A stretch of DNA of 64,000 nt, taken from contig JACQZU010000017.1 in assembly GCA_016213735.1 (NCBI GenBank), positions 62,001 to 126,000 of the forward strand, in the 5' to 3' direction. The position numbers and the translations under genes are program-made. The notes under the pieces are model-generated. The model was not told where the DNA came from. It made no database searches and saw only the letters and a program-made list of their open reading frames with translations. The stretch's first letter is position 1. Each line of letters begins with the position of its first letter. Origin of the DNA: Acidobacteriota bacterium (GTDB taxonomy: Bacteria > Acidobacteriota > Holophagae > Holophagales > Holophagaceae). Positions 14,001-19,234 of this stretch are shown here, piece by piece.

Positions 14001-14537
14001 CTGGATGAACTGCATGGCGATGTAGGGGCGCTTGGCGTCTTCGCCGATCTGGTAGATGCGGCACACCGCGGGGTGTTCCACCCGTGCCTGCAGCTGGGCT
14101 TCCTGGAACATCCTTTGCACGAGTTCGGGGCTCTCTCCCCGAACCAACTTGAGGGCCACCCGCCGACCCAGGCTGGGGTCCCAGGCCAGGTACACCGCCC
14201 CCATGCCTCCCTCCCCGAGCAGGGGGCCCAGGCGGTAGCCCCCCACGCGGGGCGGGCGGGGCCGCCCGGGCTGGTCCCTGGCCCAGTCGGGGATCTCCTG
14301 GAGCCGCCGTCGCCGTCCCCCAGCCGCCCGGCGACCTGGAAGGCCCTCGGGGACCGGCTGCAGGGCCGGCCCCCGTGTGAATTCGGAATCCCCGGCGAGA
14401 ATCTCGTGGGCGGTGGTCTGGTCACCGGGGACGGGCTCAGGAGGCAGGGGCCCCTGGCCGCCCCCCTCTTCCGGCTGCTCCCTCTCAGACCCGATCAAGG
14501 CATTTCCCTTCCAGATTCGACGATCGCATTCCCCCAT
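11001..14537 (-). CDS. Ser/Thr protein kinase with membrane segment and TPR-like domain (paralogue 2)
   Basis: A Hanks-type kinase of 1178 residues from the ATG at 14537, which has GGAAG six bases upstream; a GTG lies one codon earlier. Counting from that GTG, the glycine loop is GEGGMG (109-114), ATP lysine K131, HRDLKP D219, DFG D241 and APE 267-269, so catalysis is intact. A membrane segment lies near 386-407, directly after a basic RRLWARAKRNRAL stretch also found in the other two paralogues. The C-terminal ~770 residues are helical TPR-like repeats. The shared membrane-proximal stretch and repeat style show common ancestry with the kinases at 744 and 28589. Confidence 0.9.
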   Translation of the reverse strand: MGECDRRIWKGNALIGSEREQPEEGGGQGPLPPEPVPGDQTTAHEILAGDSEFTRGPALQPVPEGLPGRRAAGGRRRRLQEIPDWARDQPGRPRPPRVGGYRLGPLLGEGGMGAVYLAWDPSLGRRVALKLVRGESPELVQRMFQEAQLQARVEHPAVCRIYQIGEDAKRPYIAMQFIQGANLADWRHHLGIEQRVRLLIQVADAVHAAHRVGLIHRDLKPSNLLVEQDEAGVLRPFVMDFGLARDLEGGGITQQGIAVGSPSYMAPEQASGGRVDERTDVYGLGATLYEVLCGAPPFRGASAVETVRRVMEWDAPRLGQRAPGIPPDLESVVHRCLEKDPGLRYPSARELRDDLQRFLDGEPVEARRQNTLRRLWARAKRNRALSLVVGGATLLVLLLGIFALWTWRRGLERTLWAQRFGQQVREMDGTLRNAHLFPLHDLRPEKSEVRSRLDRIRELVKRGGPAGVGPGNLALGQGLLMLGEPEAARGALAAAWESGYRTPEVALAMLEALAELARRGAEQAFLIPHPGLREATLAHDRRVYRGQAQAFLARARLAGEWTPSQESAVARLTGQVEVAERVAREGFDRQRWNYEVRLEEVEAIFQHVRELPEDQDARLAARLGEAERLLAWLRETARSDPRVHLAEAQSRLLRIRLDAPGRGLEPSLREGLQALDRASQSDPGSGLPHLFRAQLYFWTGLRQVRNPFQGSYWMDRALESCALALADPAFRASALAYRGSLAFHKARTLLEGGRDPGPALQEGREAWQKALAESRGPEGLAFLGSLELAFAYLVVADFESAHGRNPGPSLSAARETFVALLASDPGNEEATLQLAAVHRRLGEDAASRGAPTDPHLRASRENLENHLRKVPGAARAWLDLGQVALLQAEVAQGHGESEAAFLAKAEEAFGKALALQPRQAAPRYGLVAAEWLRSRGQAAGGDPVVAPLAQGFRTLGDIRQVEGGAEASWEVQVLESKLRLEEARRWRASAQDRAATQTLAVEAARRATRQAPRQAEAWKALGMALLAQEWTRFEGSAAPRLPEVRRAFQRAEAINPADPETLLGLSRSALLEAAGAVRAGRRAGLGPAEAPLARLLQRNPRQAEALALRASICLFGGPPGGSPETLARCREMARAALAVHPGQPVARRLLGLQPRGPGPRDPDPGLEFLLDRWEGTRR

Positions 14538-14581
14538 CACATTCTTCCAGGCAGCAGGGCCTTCTGGATGCGGCTCGAATG

Positions 14582-14607
14582 AAAAATCCCGCCCCTGGTG
14601 GGGCGGG
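14582..14607 (-). terminator. Rho-independent terminator after the octaheme cytochrome gene
   Basis: The arms CCCGCCCC and GGGGCGGG (14588-14607) form an 8-bp stem with a 4-base loop. Read leftward it is followed by five Ts (14582-14586). It lies 24 bases beyond the stop of the octaheme nitrite reductase gene. Confidence 0.85.
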
Positions 14608-14631
14608 AGGTTCCGGAGTGGGCTGCGGCGA

Positions 14632-16242
14632 TCAGGGCTTGGGGGCGCTCTTGGCGTCCATGGCCTTGTTCAGGAGGTCCACGCCGTCCTTGGCGGCCTT
14701 GATGCTCAGGGTGAGGGAGTCCCGGGCCAACTCGGGGTTGTGGAAGCCGTCGGAGTTCTCGGCGGTCCAGAACTCCCAGAGCACGTGGGCCTCCTCGTGC
14801 TTCTCGCGGGCCTTGGCGAGCACGTCCTCGCCCACGCCCATGCGCTTGGCGGCGGGGTAGGTGTCAATCAGGCGCCCGATCCAGTACTCGGCCTTCCGCA
14901 TCTTGCCCTTCACGAAGTTCCGGATGCTCTCGATCTCGTACTTCTTGGCCTCCACCGAATCCTTGGGATGGCAGCCCATGCAGCTCTCTTTGACGGTGAG
15001 CAGGGGGCGGGCCACGTTGTGAGCGCTGAAGACCTTGCCGTCCTTGCCCTTGGCCTTGGGCATGTGGCACTGGTGGCATTGGACCCCGGCCTTGTCGTGG
15101 ACCGAGCCCGCGTAGGTCTCGGCCTCGGGGTGCTGCATCTTGATGAGGCGGGCGCCGGTGATGGCGTGCTTGAAGTCGTAGAAGTCGAGCTTCTTGTAGT
15201 GGGCCAGCAGCTCCTTGGCGTTCTTCAGCGGGAAGTGGTTGGTGCGCCGGTCGGCGTAGGTCACCGGCTTGTCGTCGCTCCACTGGTAGCCCGTGTTGCA
15301 GTTGTACTCCACGTGGCACTGGGCGCACATCATGCGGCTGTCGGTCTTGGACATCACGCCGATCCTTCGGAAGCCGCGGAAGTCCATCACCTTCAGGTCG
15401 GTCTTGCCGTCCTTGGCGAAGATGTTCTTGGAACCTTCGCGCTCGATGGCATCAATCAGCGCATCCCGCACGACACGAGGCTTCGTCCCGTGGGGATCGT
15501 GGCAGTGGATGCAGCCCACGGGGTTGTTCGTGGCCTTGGCCACGTCCACGATGCTGGAGGTGCGGTCGAAAATGGCGCCGCCGCCCTTGTCACCCATGTA
15601 TTTCCAGCGAAGGATGTGGTCCGAGGTCTTGCACTGGATGCAGGTGGGGTTCCCTGCCATGGCGGTCTCGGTCAGGCGGGTCTTTTCGCCCTTGTCCACC
15701 AGCAGGTCCCAGGTCTTCCCGGGCTTGTTGACGTCCTTCCAGCCGTTCTTGTGCTGGAAGCGGCCGCCCTGGAATCGGTCCACGACGAACTGGTCGATCA
15801 CCATGAAGGCGTGGGCCCGTGGCTCGTTGTGCTCGAAGGTGAATCCGTGGCCCGCGAGGAGTTTGTCCTGCATGGGGGAGCGGCCCGTGGGAATGCCCTT
15901 CTCCTTGCGGGCGCCGCCTTCCTGGGGAACGTGGTTGAAACTCTCCCACTGGGACTTGTGGCAGGACCCGCAGAGGGCGCCGTCGATCTTGGTGACGGGC
16001 TTTTCAGAACCCTCGCTCTTCACGTGCTTGGCCAGGTCGTCGTGGCAGGTGGTGCAGGCCAGCTTGGCGTGCTTGGAGCCTTCCTTCATCCCCTTGATTT
16101 CGTCGTGGCACTGGTAGCAGGTGTCCTTTCCAGGCGCGGCGAGGCTGGCCGCGGGCTTCCCGGCCAGGGCGCCCAGGAACAGCGGCAAGGTGAGCACCCC
16201 CGCGAAGCTCCAGAACAGGCGTCGGTGGAGGAAGGCTTTCAT
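14632..16242 (-). CDS. Octaheme c-type cytochrome, nitrite reductase (ONR/TvNiR type)
   Basis: A 536-residue periplasmic cytochrome with an N-terminal signal segment (residues 8-34). Eight heme sites are visible: CxxCH at 42, 63, 91, 244, 306, 389 and 421, and CxxCK at 201-205. Three extra N-terminal hemes before a five-heme NrfA-like core, with lysine ligating heme 4, is the signature of octaheme nitrite reductases, which reduce nitrite to ammonium. Active-site candidates follow the Thioalkalivibrio enzyme: R142, Y313, H371 preceded by Q370, and C315 two residues after Y313, the pair cross-linked in that enzyme. AAGGAG precedes the ATG. The electron donor is not in the window. Reduction of hydroxylamine, NO or sulfite is also possible. 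Confidence 0.9.
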   Translation of the reverse strand: MKAFLHRRLFWSFAGVLTLPLFLGALAGKPAASLAAPGKDTCYQCHDEIKGMKEGSKHAKLACTTCHDDLAKHVKSEGSEKPVTKIDGALCGSCHKSQWESFNHVPQEGGARKEKGIPTGRSPMQDKLLAGHGFTFEHNEPRAHAFMVIDQFVVDRFQGGRFQHKNGWKDVNKPGKTWDLLVDKGEKTRLTETAMAGNPTCIQCKTSDHILRWKYMGDKGGGAIFDRTSSIVDVAKATNNPVGCIHCHDPHGTKPRVVRDALIDAIEREGSKNIFAKDGKTDLKVMDFRGFRRIGVMSKTDSRMMCAQCHVEYNCNTGYQWSDDKPVTYADRRTNHFPLKNAKELLAHYKKLDFYDFKHAITGARLIKMQHPEAETYAGSVHDKAGVQCHQCHMPKAKGKDGKVFSAHNVARPLLTVKESCMGCHPKDSVEAKKYEIESIRNFVKGKMRKAEYWIGRLIDTYPAAKRMGVGEDVLAKAREKHEEAHVLWEFWTAENSDGFHNPELARDSLTLSIKAAKDGVDLLNKAMDAKSAPKP

Positions 16243-16381
16243 GGCGTCTCCTTGGTGCGTCCGGCGAGGGACAGGGAAGGGGGGATTGGGCCGGGGATCC
16301 GGGGATGCTCGCGACCCGGTGCTATTCTATGCCCGCGCACAACATTTAAGAAAGACTTATCCTAAAAAATTTGGACCCCCC

Positions 16382-16957
16382 TTGGATACCCCTTCCCGAC
16401 CCCTCCTTCCTGTGGGCCTCCTCCTTCTCACCGGGGGGGCCAGCCGCCGTTACGGGGCTCCCAAGCACCTGGAACCCCACCCCAGGGGCGGCACCTGGGG
16501 CTCGCACCTGGTGCGGGTATTCCGTGAAACCCTGGGGCCCGGACCGGAGCGGGTCCTCGGGGAGGCGCTGCCGGAGCATCCCGAGGTCGCCGTCCTGGAG
16601 GATCCCCGCGAGGGCCCGGCCGCGGCCCTGGTCCGGTGGGCTGGGGTCGAGCGAGTCCAGGCTCTGCGCTGGTGGGTGGTGCCCTGTGACCAGGTCCACT
16701 GGACGCGGGAGTTCCTGGAGGACTGGCACCGTGCCGCCGCCGCCGCCGATCCCAGGGGAGACTTCTGGGTTGCCGCTGAGACGGAACAAGGGAGGCAGGT
16801 CCTGGGAGGGTTCCTGGGCGGGCGCCTGCCCCCCGCTTTGGCCCGGCTCCGCTTCCGCAGGGTGGGAGAACTCTTCGGGGCGCTGCCGTCCCTGACGAGG
16901 CCCTGGGCCTGGGCCCCCTTCGAAGACGTGGACGAGCGGCCCCCGACCCCACCCTGA
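16382..16957 (+). CDS. mobA: MobA-like molybdenum cofactor nucleotidyltransferase
   Basis: The protein carries the nucleotidyltransferase signature LLLTGGASRRYGAPK near its start and WWVVPCDQVHW, where the aspartate would bind magnesium. This is the layout of MobA, which adds GMP to molybdopterin to make the cofactor of nitrate reductase-type enzymes. There is no ATG at the right place. A TTG at 16382 (191 residues) and a GTG at 16412 (181 residues) are the candidate starts, neither with a clear ribosome site. It is divergent from the octaheme gene. Related MocA or other sugar-nucleotide transferases cannot be excluded, and the sequence is short and divergent. Confidence 0.7.
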   Translation: MDTPSRPLLPVGLLLLTGGASRRYGAPKHLEPHPRGGTWGSHLVRVFRETLGPGPERVLGEALPEHPEVAVLEDPREGPAAALVRWAGVERVQALRWWVVPCDQVHWTREFLEDWHRAAAAADPRGDFWVAAETEQGRQVLGGFLGGRLPPALARLRFRRVGELFGALPSLTRPWAWAPFEDVDERPPTPP

Positions 16958-16972
16958 GGGGCCGGACCGGGC

Positions 16973-17404
16973 CTATTTCTTCTTGGCCTTGGCGGCCTCG
17001 TTCCGCATCCGGACCAGCTGGAGGTCCCGGATGGTGCTCTGGGTCATGCTGGAGTCCATGTGGGCCTTCACCTGGCTCCAGGCGTCATGGAGGGGACAGG
17101 GGTTCTCGCAGGTGCATTCCGGGAAGCCCATCACGCAACCGACGAACGCTTCCGGCCCCTCCATGGCCGCCACCACGTCCCCCACCGTCACCCGATGGGC
17201 CGGCCGAGCCATGCGGAATCCACCCTTGGGGCCTCGCACCGACTCCAGGATCCCGGACTGGGCCAGGGTCTGCAGGATCTTGGCGAGGTAGGGGCCCGGG
17301 AGGGTCAGGCGGTCCGAGAGGTCCTTGGCCAGGCTGAAGCTGCCGTCCTCCGGGAGTTCGGCGAGGGCTTGGAGGGCGTAGGCGGTGGCAGTGGAAAAGA
17401 GCAT
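16973..17404 (-). CDS. Rrf2-family transcriptional regulator with cysteine cluster (NsrR/IscR-like)
   Basis: A 143-residue winged-helix regulator. The N-terminus MLFSTATAYALQAL and the wing GILESVRGPKGGFRMARP are typical of Rrf2. Cys90, Cys97, Cys99 and Cys103 cluster in the dimerisation-helix region where NsrR and IscR bind an Fe-S cluster. It could therefore sense NO, redox state or Fe-S supply. The ATG at 17404 is preferred over one 14 codons upstream because it gives the family's usual start and has GAGAGG upstream. It lies between the octaheme/MobA pair and the YwiC/hemerythrin pair, so control of these is a fair guess. Confidence 0.85.
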   Translation of the reverse strand: MLFSTATAYALQALAELPEDGSFSLAKDLSDRLTLPGPYLAKILQTLAQSGILESVRGPKGGFRMARPAHRVTVGDVVAAMEGPEAFVGCVMGFPECTCENPCPLHDAWSQVKAHMDSSMTQSTIRDLQLVRMRNEAAKAKKK

Positions 17405-17479
17405 TTTCGGACTCGCCTCTCTTTGATTAATAGATTCCCACCGCATGGGCCATCCTTCAAGAACTCAATCCCTCCGAAA

Positions 17480-18259
17480 TCACAAGTGAAGGACCGCCAG
17501 GGTCAATCCGGCGGCCTCTGCCAGGATCTCCAGGACCCCGATCCGCCAGGGAGGCCCTTTCCGCAGGGGCAACAAGGCCCTTGGGTAGAGCAGAACCTGG
17601 AGGGCAAGCCAGGCCGGCCCTGCCAGGCCTCGGTGCCACATCCAGACCCCCACGCCGAGGCAGGCCCCCATCACGAGGTGCATTTCGAGCTTCCGGGGTC
17701 CGGACGCGGGGCCGGGGATGTCCCGATGGGCCTGAAGGTGGAAGCGGACTGCGGCGAACCCTGGCGCGAGGGTGAGAAAGGCCAGGAGGCCGATCCGAAG
17801 GGCGGAGGGTCCCCCCCCGCCTCCGGTCCAGACCGCCCCTCCCCCGAAGACACAGAAGAAGGCCAGGGCGCAAAGTTCCACGAGCAGGTTCCTGGAACGG
17901 CGCCGGAGGTCGGCCGCCAGCGCCACCAGGCCGAAGGGCAGGGCCAGGAGGGGCGGAATCAGGGTCGCAGGGCCCCCACGGCGGAGCAGGACGGCCGCCA
18001 GGAGAAGGATCCCGAGAACACCTGAAAAGACCAGCCATCGGGACACCCGCCGACGGACCCCTGCGTGCCACTGGCGGATCGGGACCCGAAGGAGGAAGGC
18101 CAGGAATCCCATTCCTTCCAGGGCTGCCCCCTCCCACGAGGGGCGGGCGGCCAAACCCCCGATCATGGGGAACAGGCTGATGAACCACCCCCCGGTTTCA
18201 GCCGGGACCAGGCTTCGCCACAGGTTTCGGAAATCGATGGGTTCCCGGGAAGGATTCAT
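17480..18259 (-). CDS. YwiC-like integral membrane protein
   Basis: A 259-residue protein with about seven hydrophobic segments, e.g. LVFSGVLGILLLAAVLL, LVELCALAFFCVFGGGAVW and IGLLAFLTLAPGFAAV. The layout and the N-terminal PAETGGWFISLFPMIGGL segment resemble YwiC-like proteins, which in Bacillus sit beside nar/fnr genes for anaerobic nitrate respiration. Its function is unknown. It is upstream of the Rrf2 gene on the same strand with a 75-base gap and may be cotranscribed with it. The family call rests on overall pattern and is moderate. Confidence 0.6.
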   Translation of the reverse strand: MNPSREPIDFRNLWRSLVPAETGGWFISLFPMIGGLAARPSWEGAALEGMGFLAFLLRVPIRQWHAGVRRRVSRWLVFSGVLGILLLAAVLLRRGGPATLIPPLLALPFGLVALAADLRRRSRNLLVELCALAFFCVFGGGAVWTGGGGGPSALRIGLLAFLTLAPGFAAVRFHLQAHRDIPGPASGPRKLEMHLVMGACLGVGVWMWHRGLAGPAWLALQVLLYPRALLPLRKGPPWRIGVLEILAEAAGLTLAVLHL

Positions 18260-18418: not shown

Positions 18419-19234
18419 ATGAGTCACGTGATCCGAGATCTCCCCGCCGCCCTGCCTGTGCCAGATTCCGGCATCGCCTCGAGCCCCCTGCTCGACCTCC
18501 CCGGGGGTACGAAGGTGGTGCTCTTCGCCATGGACCAGGGGCAGGAGATCAGCCCCCACGCGGCCCCCTTCCCAGCGCAGATTCTCCTCCTGGAGGGCAG
18601 GCTGGAAGTCTTGATCGGTGACGCCTGGAATGGCGTGGCCCCCCACGAAGGCCTGGAGTTGCCCGCGGGGTTGCCCCACGGGGTGAAGGCCCTGGCACCC
18701 AGCCATTTCCTGCTGACCATGCTCCGGGGGGCGGGCCAGCCGGCGGACCGGCCCGCGGCTGGGGCCGCCGTCAAGCCCCCGCGCAGTGTGGCCTCCCCTG
18801 TGCTCCAGCACTGGATGGACCAGCACGACGAAGCCCTGAGGCGCCTCGACCGCATGGAGGGGGGGATCGGAAAGGAGGACTGGACCACAGTGGGAGAGGT
18901 GGCCCGCTGGCTCTACGATGAACTGAAGGCGCACAACGAGGCGGAGGAGCGCTGCCTCTTCCCCTTGATGGACCCCTTCTTCGGGGGCCAGCACGGACCC
19001 ACCGACTGCATGCGGGACGAACATCGCCTGCTCTGGGATTCCACGCTCCAGCTCCAGCAGGAACTCGAGGCCCGGCCGGGCGGCAGCCCCCGTGCCGGGA
19101 CCCTGGCCCTTTCCATCGTGGGCAACCTCCGGGCCCACATCGACAAGGAGAACCAGGTCCTCTACCCCATGGCCGAACGGATCCTCACGCCCGACCAGCT
19201 TCGCCAGCTGGAACAGGCCTACGCTGCCGGATGA
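18419..19234 (+). CDS. Cupin-hemerythrin fusion protein
   Basis: A 271-residue cytoplasmic protein. Residues ~25-100 form a cupin beta-barrel (AQILLLEGRLEVLIGD, then LPAGLPHGVKAL), with few metal ligands visible. Residues ~128-268 form a four-helix hemerythrin domain with ligand candidates H136, H172, E176, H202, H240 and E244, which would hold a diiron centre. Hemerythrin proteins of the RIC/YtfE kind repair nitrosatively damaged Fe-S clusters; others bind oxygen or NO. The cupin part may regulate the diiron site or bind a small ligand. The gene is divergent from the YwiC-like/Rrf2 pair. The fold call is strong, the role inferred. Confidence 0.85.
   Translation: MSHVIRDLPAALPVPDSGIASSPLLDLPGGTKVVLFAMDQGQEISPHAAPFPAQILLLEGRLEVLIGDAWNGVAPHEGLELPAGLPHGVKALAPSHFLLTMLRGAGQPADRPAAGAAVKPPRSVASPVLQHWMDQHDEALRRLDRMEGGIGKEDWTTVGEVARWLYDELKAHNEAEERCLFPLMDPFFGGQHGPTDCMRDEHRLLWDSTLQLQQELEARPGGSPRAGTLALSIVGNLRAHIDKENQVLYPMAERILTPDQLRQLEQAYAAG

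Follow-up and report, generated by a model that had tools for sequence, protein, structure and literature searches.

An octaheme nitrite reductase with the active-site residues of its family in a Holophagaceae genome, and a Tyr-x-Cys pair in pentaheme NrfA of Acidobacteriota

The window analyzed here, a stretch of 64,000 nucleotides from one contig of an Acidobacteriota genome (Holophagaceae, the family of Geothrix), carries on its minus strand an open reading frame for a protein of 536 amino acids (Table 1). Eight heme motifs follow one another in the order three CXXCH, one CIQCK and four CXXCH, at residues 42 (CYQCH), 63 (CTTCH), 91 (CGSCH), 201 (CIQCK), 244 (CIHCH), 306 (CAQCH), 389 (CHQCH) and 421 (CMGCH), whereas no more than 3 motifs (mean 0.08) turned up in any of 5000 shuffled versions of the protein. 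The motif VEYNC stands directly after heme 6 and supplies Y313 and C315, and the spacing of 58 residues from Y313 to H371 is the same as that from 303 to 361 in TvNiR, the octaheme nitrite reductase (ONR) of Thioalkalivibrio nitratireducens (2ot4, 3d1i). Alignment to TvNiR matched the pocket one for one, pairing R156 with Arg131, K205 with Lys188, Y313 with Tyr303, C315 with Cys305, K368 with Lys358, Q370 with Gln360 and H371 with His361. A sequence-only reading of this DNA had listed the same eight heme sites, with CXXCK at 201-205 and seven CXXCH, and had placed VEYNC after heme 6 and Q370-H371 at the TvNiR spacing; all of these are in the sequence, and the TvNiR numbering that it gave agrees with the PDB chain (Y303, C305, Q360, H361 and K188).

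Table 1. Coordinates of the features discussed; positions without a locus label are those of the window.
Feature	Position	Strand	Basis or remark
Octaheme nitrite reductase (ONR), 536 aa	14632..16242	-	ORF, sequence matches, alignment, fold
Putative N-terminal export signal, about residues 1-36	16135..16242	-	Predicted from sequence; 8rv0/3d1i alignments start at residue 38
R156 (TvNiR Arg131)	15775..15777	-	Alignment; R in 85/85 ONRs
Heme 4 CIQCK, residues 201-205; K205 as catalytic-heme lysine ligand (TvNiR Lys188)	15628..15642	-	Alignment; K in 85/85 ONRs
Y313-N314-C315 (TvNiR Tyr303-x-Cys305 pair)	15298..15306	-	Alignment; Y and C in 85/85 ONRs
Q370-H371 (TvNiR Gln360-His361)	15130..15135	-	Alignment; H in 85/85, Q in 84/85 ONRs
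Hairpin resembling an intrinsic terminator, immediately past the ONR stop; 9 pairs, 8 of them G-C, and a T5 tail	14587..14608	-	Sequence scan
Rrf2-family regulator, cysteines 104, 111, 113 and 117	16973..17446	-	Neighbour of ONR
Hemerythrin-domain protein with cupin-like N-terminal part, distantly YtfE-like	18419..19234	+	Weak YtfE likeness
Pentaheme all-CXXCH NrfA, VEYYC or VEYFC	L122 3511-5085	-	Tyr-x-Cys in ONR register
47 other distinct Acidobacteriota Tyr-x-Cys NrfA loci	e.g. L089-L112, L166-L174, L176-L181, L198-L204

Comparisons of sequence and of fold both placed the protein with ONRs, in agreement with the earlier assignment. The best solved match was the ONR of Trichlorobacter ammonificans (TaNiR, 8rv0, solved with nitrite) at E 6e-244, with the Thioalkalivibrio ONRs at 4e-157 to 1e-147 versus 3e-33 for the best pentaheme NrfA; over the mature chain, the window ONR is 69% identical to TaNiR and 50% to TvNiR. 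An AlphaFold2 model (mean pLDDT 79, 47 sequences, without heme or cross-link), in which residues 1-34 had low pLDDT, matched 8rv0 with Z 41.7 and an rmsd of 2.6 over 487 residues, and the Thioalkalivibrio ONRs, NrfA and hydroxylamine oxidoreductase (HAO) with Z of about 38, 26 and 8.6, respectively. The comparison of a predicted structure with the Thioalkalivibrio enzyme had been proposed as a check, and the two folds agree; a better match to NrfA or HAO, which had been named as counting against the assignment, did not appear. A pentaheme NrfA was rejected on the eight heme sites and on the far better ONR matches, and HAO on the CIQCK of heme 4 and its low fold score. In HAO all eight sites are CXXCH, and heme 4 is a His-ligated, Tyr-linked P460.

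As defined in print, the ONR family combines seven CXXCH motifs and one CXXCK (PMC5433712, PMC10716430) with an active-site tyrosine, arginine and cysteine (PMC5433712). The 536-residue protein shows this heme order, has Y313, R156 and C315 as the three residues, and bears H371 between the sixth and seventh heme sites (306 and 389), as is characteristic of ONRs; judged by sequence and modelled fold, it is a true member of the family. Further marks of ONRs are the Tyr-Cys thioether, the six-electron reduction of nitrite to ammonium and assembly into trimers or hexamers. TaNiR shares with it the eight hemes, the CXXCK heme 4, VEYNC, the pocket residues and the fold. TvNiR differs in its haloalkaliphilic host and in that its cross-link has been demonstrated, whereas here the link is expected from homology. 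The pentaheme NrfA of Holophagaceae has a homologous catalytic domain and a Tyr-x-Cys pair of its own (VEYYC), but it has five hemes, all CXXCH, an adjoining NrfH gene and about 28% identity to the ONR.

We compared 85 ONRs, comprising the query, the two solved enzymes and loci from genome searches, and found K368 to be invariant along with the tyrosine, the cysteine, K205, R156 and H371, Q370 being replaced in a single member. The sequence-only reading had put forward that an Acidobacteriota-type genome may carry the full modified active site and not just a relative of NrfA; every residue of the set does align, and this is unsurprising because tyrosine, arginine and cysteine already define the family (PMC5433712), which is on record in 14 bacterial phyla (PMC10716430). 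Given that definition and the invariance of the pair in all 85 ONRs, the window ONR is, by its sequence, an ordinary, well-formed family member. The residue between tyrosine and cysteine varies (N, A, M or F), and L206, a 575-aa minus-strand frame, is an ONR with VEYFC in place of VEYNC or VEYAC.

Downstream, the hairpin and its T tail directly after the ONR stop suggest that the gene is probably transcribed alone, as a one-gene transcript; terminator-like sites numbered 3 versus 2.7 expected in shuffles, so that the hairpin is weak on its own, and a promoter scan of 14500-17500 found none. Upstream, an NTP-transferase-like gene separates the ONR from the Rrf2 gene, and the hemerythrin-domain gene lies about 1 kb beyond the latter, both regulator and hemerythrin-domain gene being within 3 kb of the ONR. 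In G424, the gene immediately before nrfHA encodes a homologue 67% identical to this Rrf2 protein, and G308 and G332 have more distantly related Rrf2 genes ahead of nrfHA; because of these homologues in relatives, it is plausible that the window Rrf2 protein, a candidate on sequence grounds, responds to nitrite or NO. A conserved ONR operon was rejected, as the ONR loci of other genomes carry no homologues of the window neighbours (a kinase was left out of the scoring). The ONR of G198 adjoins a DUF480 protein, common to G405 and G414, and a lactate permease, and a ribonuclease-domain (PF00545) gene (L120 6604-7026, plus strand) lies shortly upstream of it.

Among 77 Holophagaceae genomes, 4 carry an ONR, 48 a pentaheme NrfA and none both, an absence of overlap whose chance at these margins is 0.018 if genomes are taken as independent, which they are not; two of the four ONR carriers were scored as lacking NrfA from assemblies that are 71 and 84% complete. 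The ONR carriers have no NrfH-type match, every tested NrfA carrier has one adjoining nrfA, and the single PF02335 match in the window genome is the ONR itself. On a tree of 84 ONRs (SH-aLRT support from a quick search, no bootstrap), the query and three other Holophagaceae ONRs grouped together (99%), nested within a larger clade (99%) that also contains Geobacteraceae ONRs. This nesting suggests that the gene was transferred from a Geobacteraceae-type donor, the direction being read from the tree, and transfer from Geobacterales with replacement of NrfHA is the simplest reading. A search of plasmid records for ONR returned none, its 18 matches all being below 60% identity and the annotated ones listed being NrfA. 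Another Acidobacteriota family (f34) has an ONR of about 50% identity (L084 / L128 6668-8521, minus strand), which branches apart from the Geobacter-type ONRs in the tree and probably represents a separate arrival of ONR in Acidobacteriota.

The Rrf2 genes beside nrfHA in G424, G308 and G332 hint that the ONR took over the very place of nrfHA; this can be offered only as a suggestion, because the NTP-transferase-like gene intervenes between ONR and Rrf2 and because the NrfA genomes G115, G027 and G097 have no Rrf2 gene beside nrfHA. Some Holophagaceae (L122 5699-9603, L121 and L123) have an Rrf2 gene immediately before nrfHA; the L122 region continues with genes for a Crp-like regulator and a prismane (hybrid-cluster-like) protein and is likely to be a nitrosative-stress cluster. 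G332 also holds, directly downstream of its normal nrfHA, a second pair comprising a divergent NrfA-like protein with CAQCHSTYAF and an NrfH-like protein (L123 3613-4725 and 4692-5162, both minus strand).

The window genome encodes a NarG above the curated cut-off, with narH adjoining, on a contig other than that of the ONR. T. ammonificans, a Geobacterales host, pairs its ONR with Nap, whereas no NapA above the cut-off was found here. A two-heme-site cytochrome c gene directly before narG (L130 510-1436, plus strand) possibly encodes an electron-transfer partner of the nitrate reductase. In the mechanism that we propose, NarGH would reduce nitrate to nitrite, and the ONR, presumably exported and carrying eight c-type hemes, would bind nitrite at heme 4, the one with a lysine ligand (K205), where R156, Y313 and H371 form the pocket, and reduce it with six electrons to ammonium. 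The expected Y313-C315 thioether is thought to improve the tyrosine as a donor of protons and electrons; in a myoglobin model, a mimic of the Tyr-Cys link raised hydroxylamine reduction 4-fold (PMC11273360). The enzyme would most likely remove or respire the nitrite made by NarGH, the gene having come from a Geobacteraceae-type donor to serve in place of NrfHA. Taken as a whole, the account of a genuine, exported, nitrite-to-ammonium ONR of Geobacteraceae-type origin that replaces NrfHA is one that we hold with high confidence.

The nearest ONRs outside Holophagaceae being those of Geobacteraceae, the gene might be thought a Geobacter contaminant of the assembly; yet it lies on a 228 kb contig, its neighbouring Rrf2 gene has the 67% homologue in another Holophagaceae genome, a sister ONR of 78% identity occurs in a family member whose 3.7 Mb genome is assembled as one contig, and the reported contamination is 0.03%, which leaves this explanation a negligible chance. 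The thioether between Y313 and C315 is expected by homology with the Thioalkalivibrio enzyme. Its formation could be incomplete, and the two residues could then be present with no thioether between them, a case for which nothing direct speaks; we think it improbable, as the pair is invariant in the 85 ONRs and C315 is the sole non-heme cysteine of the protein, so that a disulfide partner within the chain is lacking. A single non-heme cysteine was likewise counted in 90 of 91 ONR reading frames, some of them from repeated loci.

For the physiological role, another reading is that the ONR mainly detoxifies nitrite, NO or hydroxylamine, or reduces sulfite, rather than serving respiratory ammonification. 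The Rrf2 regulator and the YtfE-like hemerythrin-domain protein close by, the failure to find Hcp in the genome, the apparently monocistronic gene with narG on another contig, and the activity of TvNiR on hydroxylamine and sulfite, in addition to nitrite and peroxide (PMC5433712), are all in keeping with it. However, NarGH is present and would supply nitrite, the ONRs of T. ammonificans and T. lovleyi are coupled to nitrate reduction (PMC11972089), and any action of Rrf2 on the ONR is only conjectural. We therefore regard detoxification as the unlikelier role, although a serious contender, and keep to reduction of NarGH-derived nitrite to ammonium.

The Tyr-x-Cys pair was also found outside ONRs. 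In all 26 Holophagaceae pentaheme NrfAs that were examined first, heme 1 is CXXCH and the sequence CGQCHVEYYC is present, while the solved NrfAs compared have Phe two residues after the catalytic tyrosine, or Ile in the two Geobacter NrfAs. Of the 94 distinct NrfAs compared across Acidobacteriota genomes, 48 have Tyr-x-Cys (45 VEYYC and one each of TEYYC, AEYFC and VEYFC) and 46 have Tyr-x-Phe. On an NrfA tree built without the Tyr+2 residue, the trait requires 3 changes versus 28 in shuffles, and an AU test did not reject a single origin of Y-x-C in NrfA (p 0.31). A search of 395 genomes from the phylum of Geobacter argillaceus with the DNA pattern for NrfA-type VEY[YF]C returned two matches, the ONR L206 and L205, a pentaheme NrfA with VEYYC (479-aa frame, minus strand); the latter groups among Acidobacteriota NrfAs on the tree and reflects either a transfer or a misplaced contig. 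A brief search of the open-access literature found no report of Tyr-x-Cys in pentaheme NrfA, which is not evidence of absence.

Since the pair occupies the same register as in ONR, a thioether could form in these enzymes. In some Cys-bearing NrfAs the cysteine of the pair is the sole non-heme one, and the majority of Phe-bearing NrfAs lack non-heme cysteines altogether; most Cys-bearing NrfAs of Holophagaceae have one extra cysteine (FEAxCK), 92 residues earlier, so that a disulfide is conceivable in them. A thioether in the VEYYC enzymes is accordingly put forward as a guess from the sequence pattern, and we see slightly less than an even chance that the cross-linked Tyr-Cys site exists also in this pentaheme, all-CXXCH lineage of Acidobacteriota NrfA, formed independently of ONR.

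In summary, the window supplies a further ONR from a family in which the enzyme is rare. The genome is also a clear instance of ONR substituting for NrfHA, a situation that probably followed transfer from Geobacterales. The VEYYC NrfA, a by-product of the analysis, outweighs this addition in importance. A 2025 review lists the Tyr-Cys link as one of the features separating ONR from NrfA (PMC12285233), a line that the VEYYC lineage would blur. The VEYYC NrfA would offer a pentaheme enzyme for testing how the link affects nitrite reduction, with its VEYYF relatives as natural controls.
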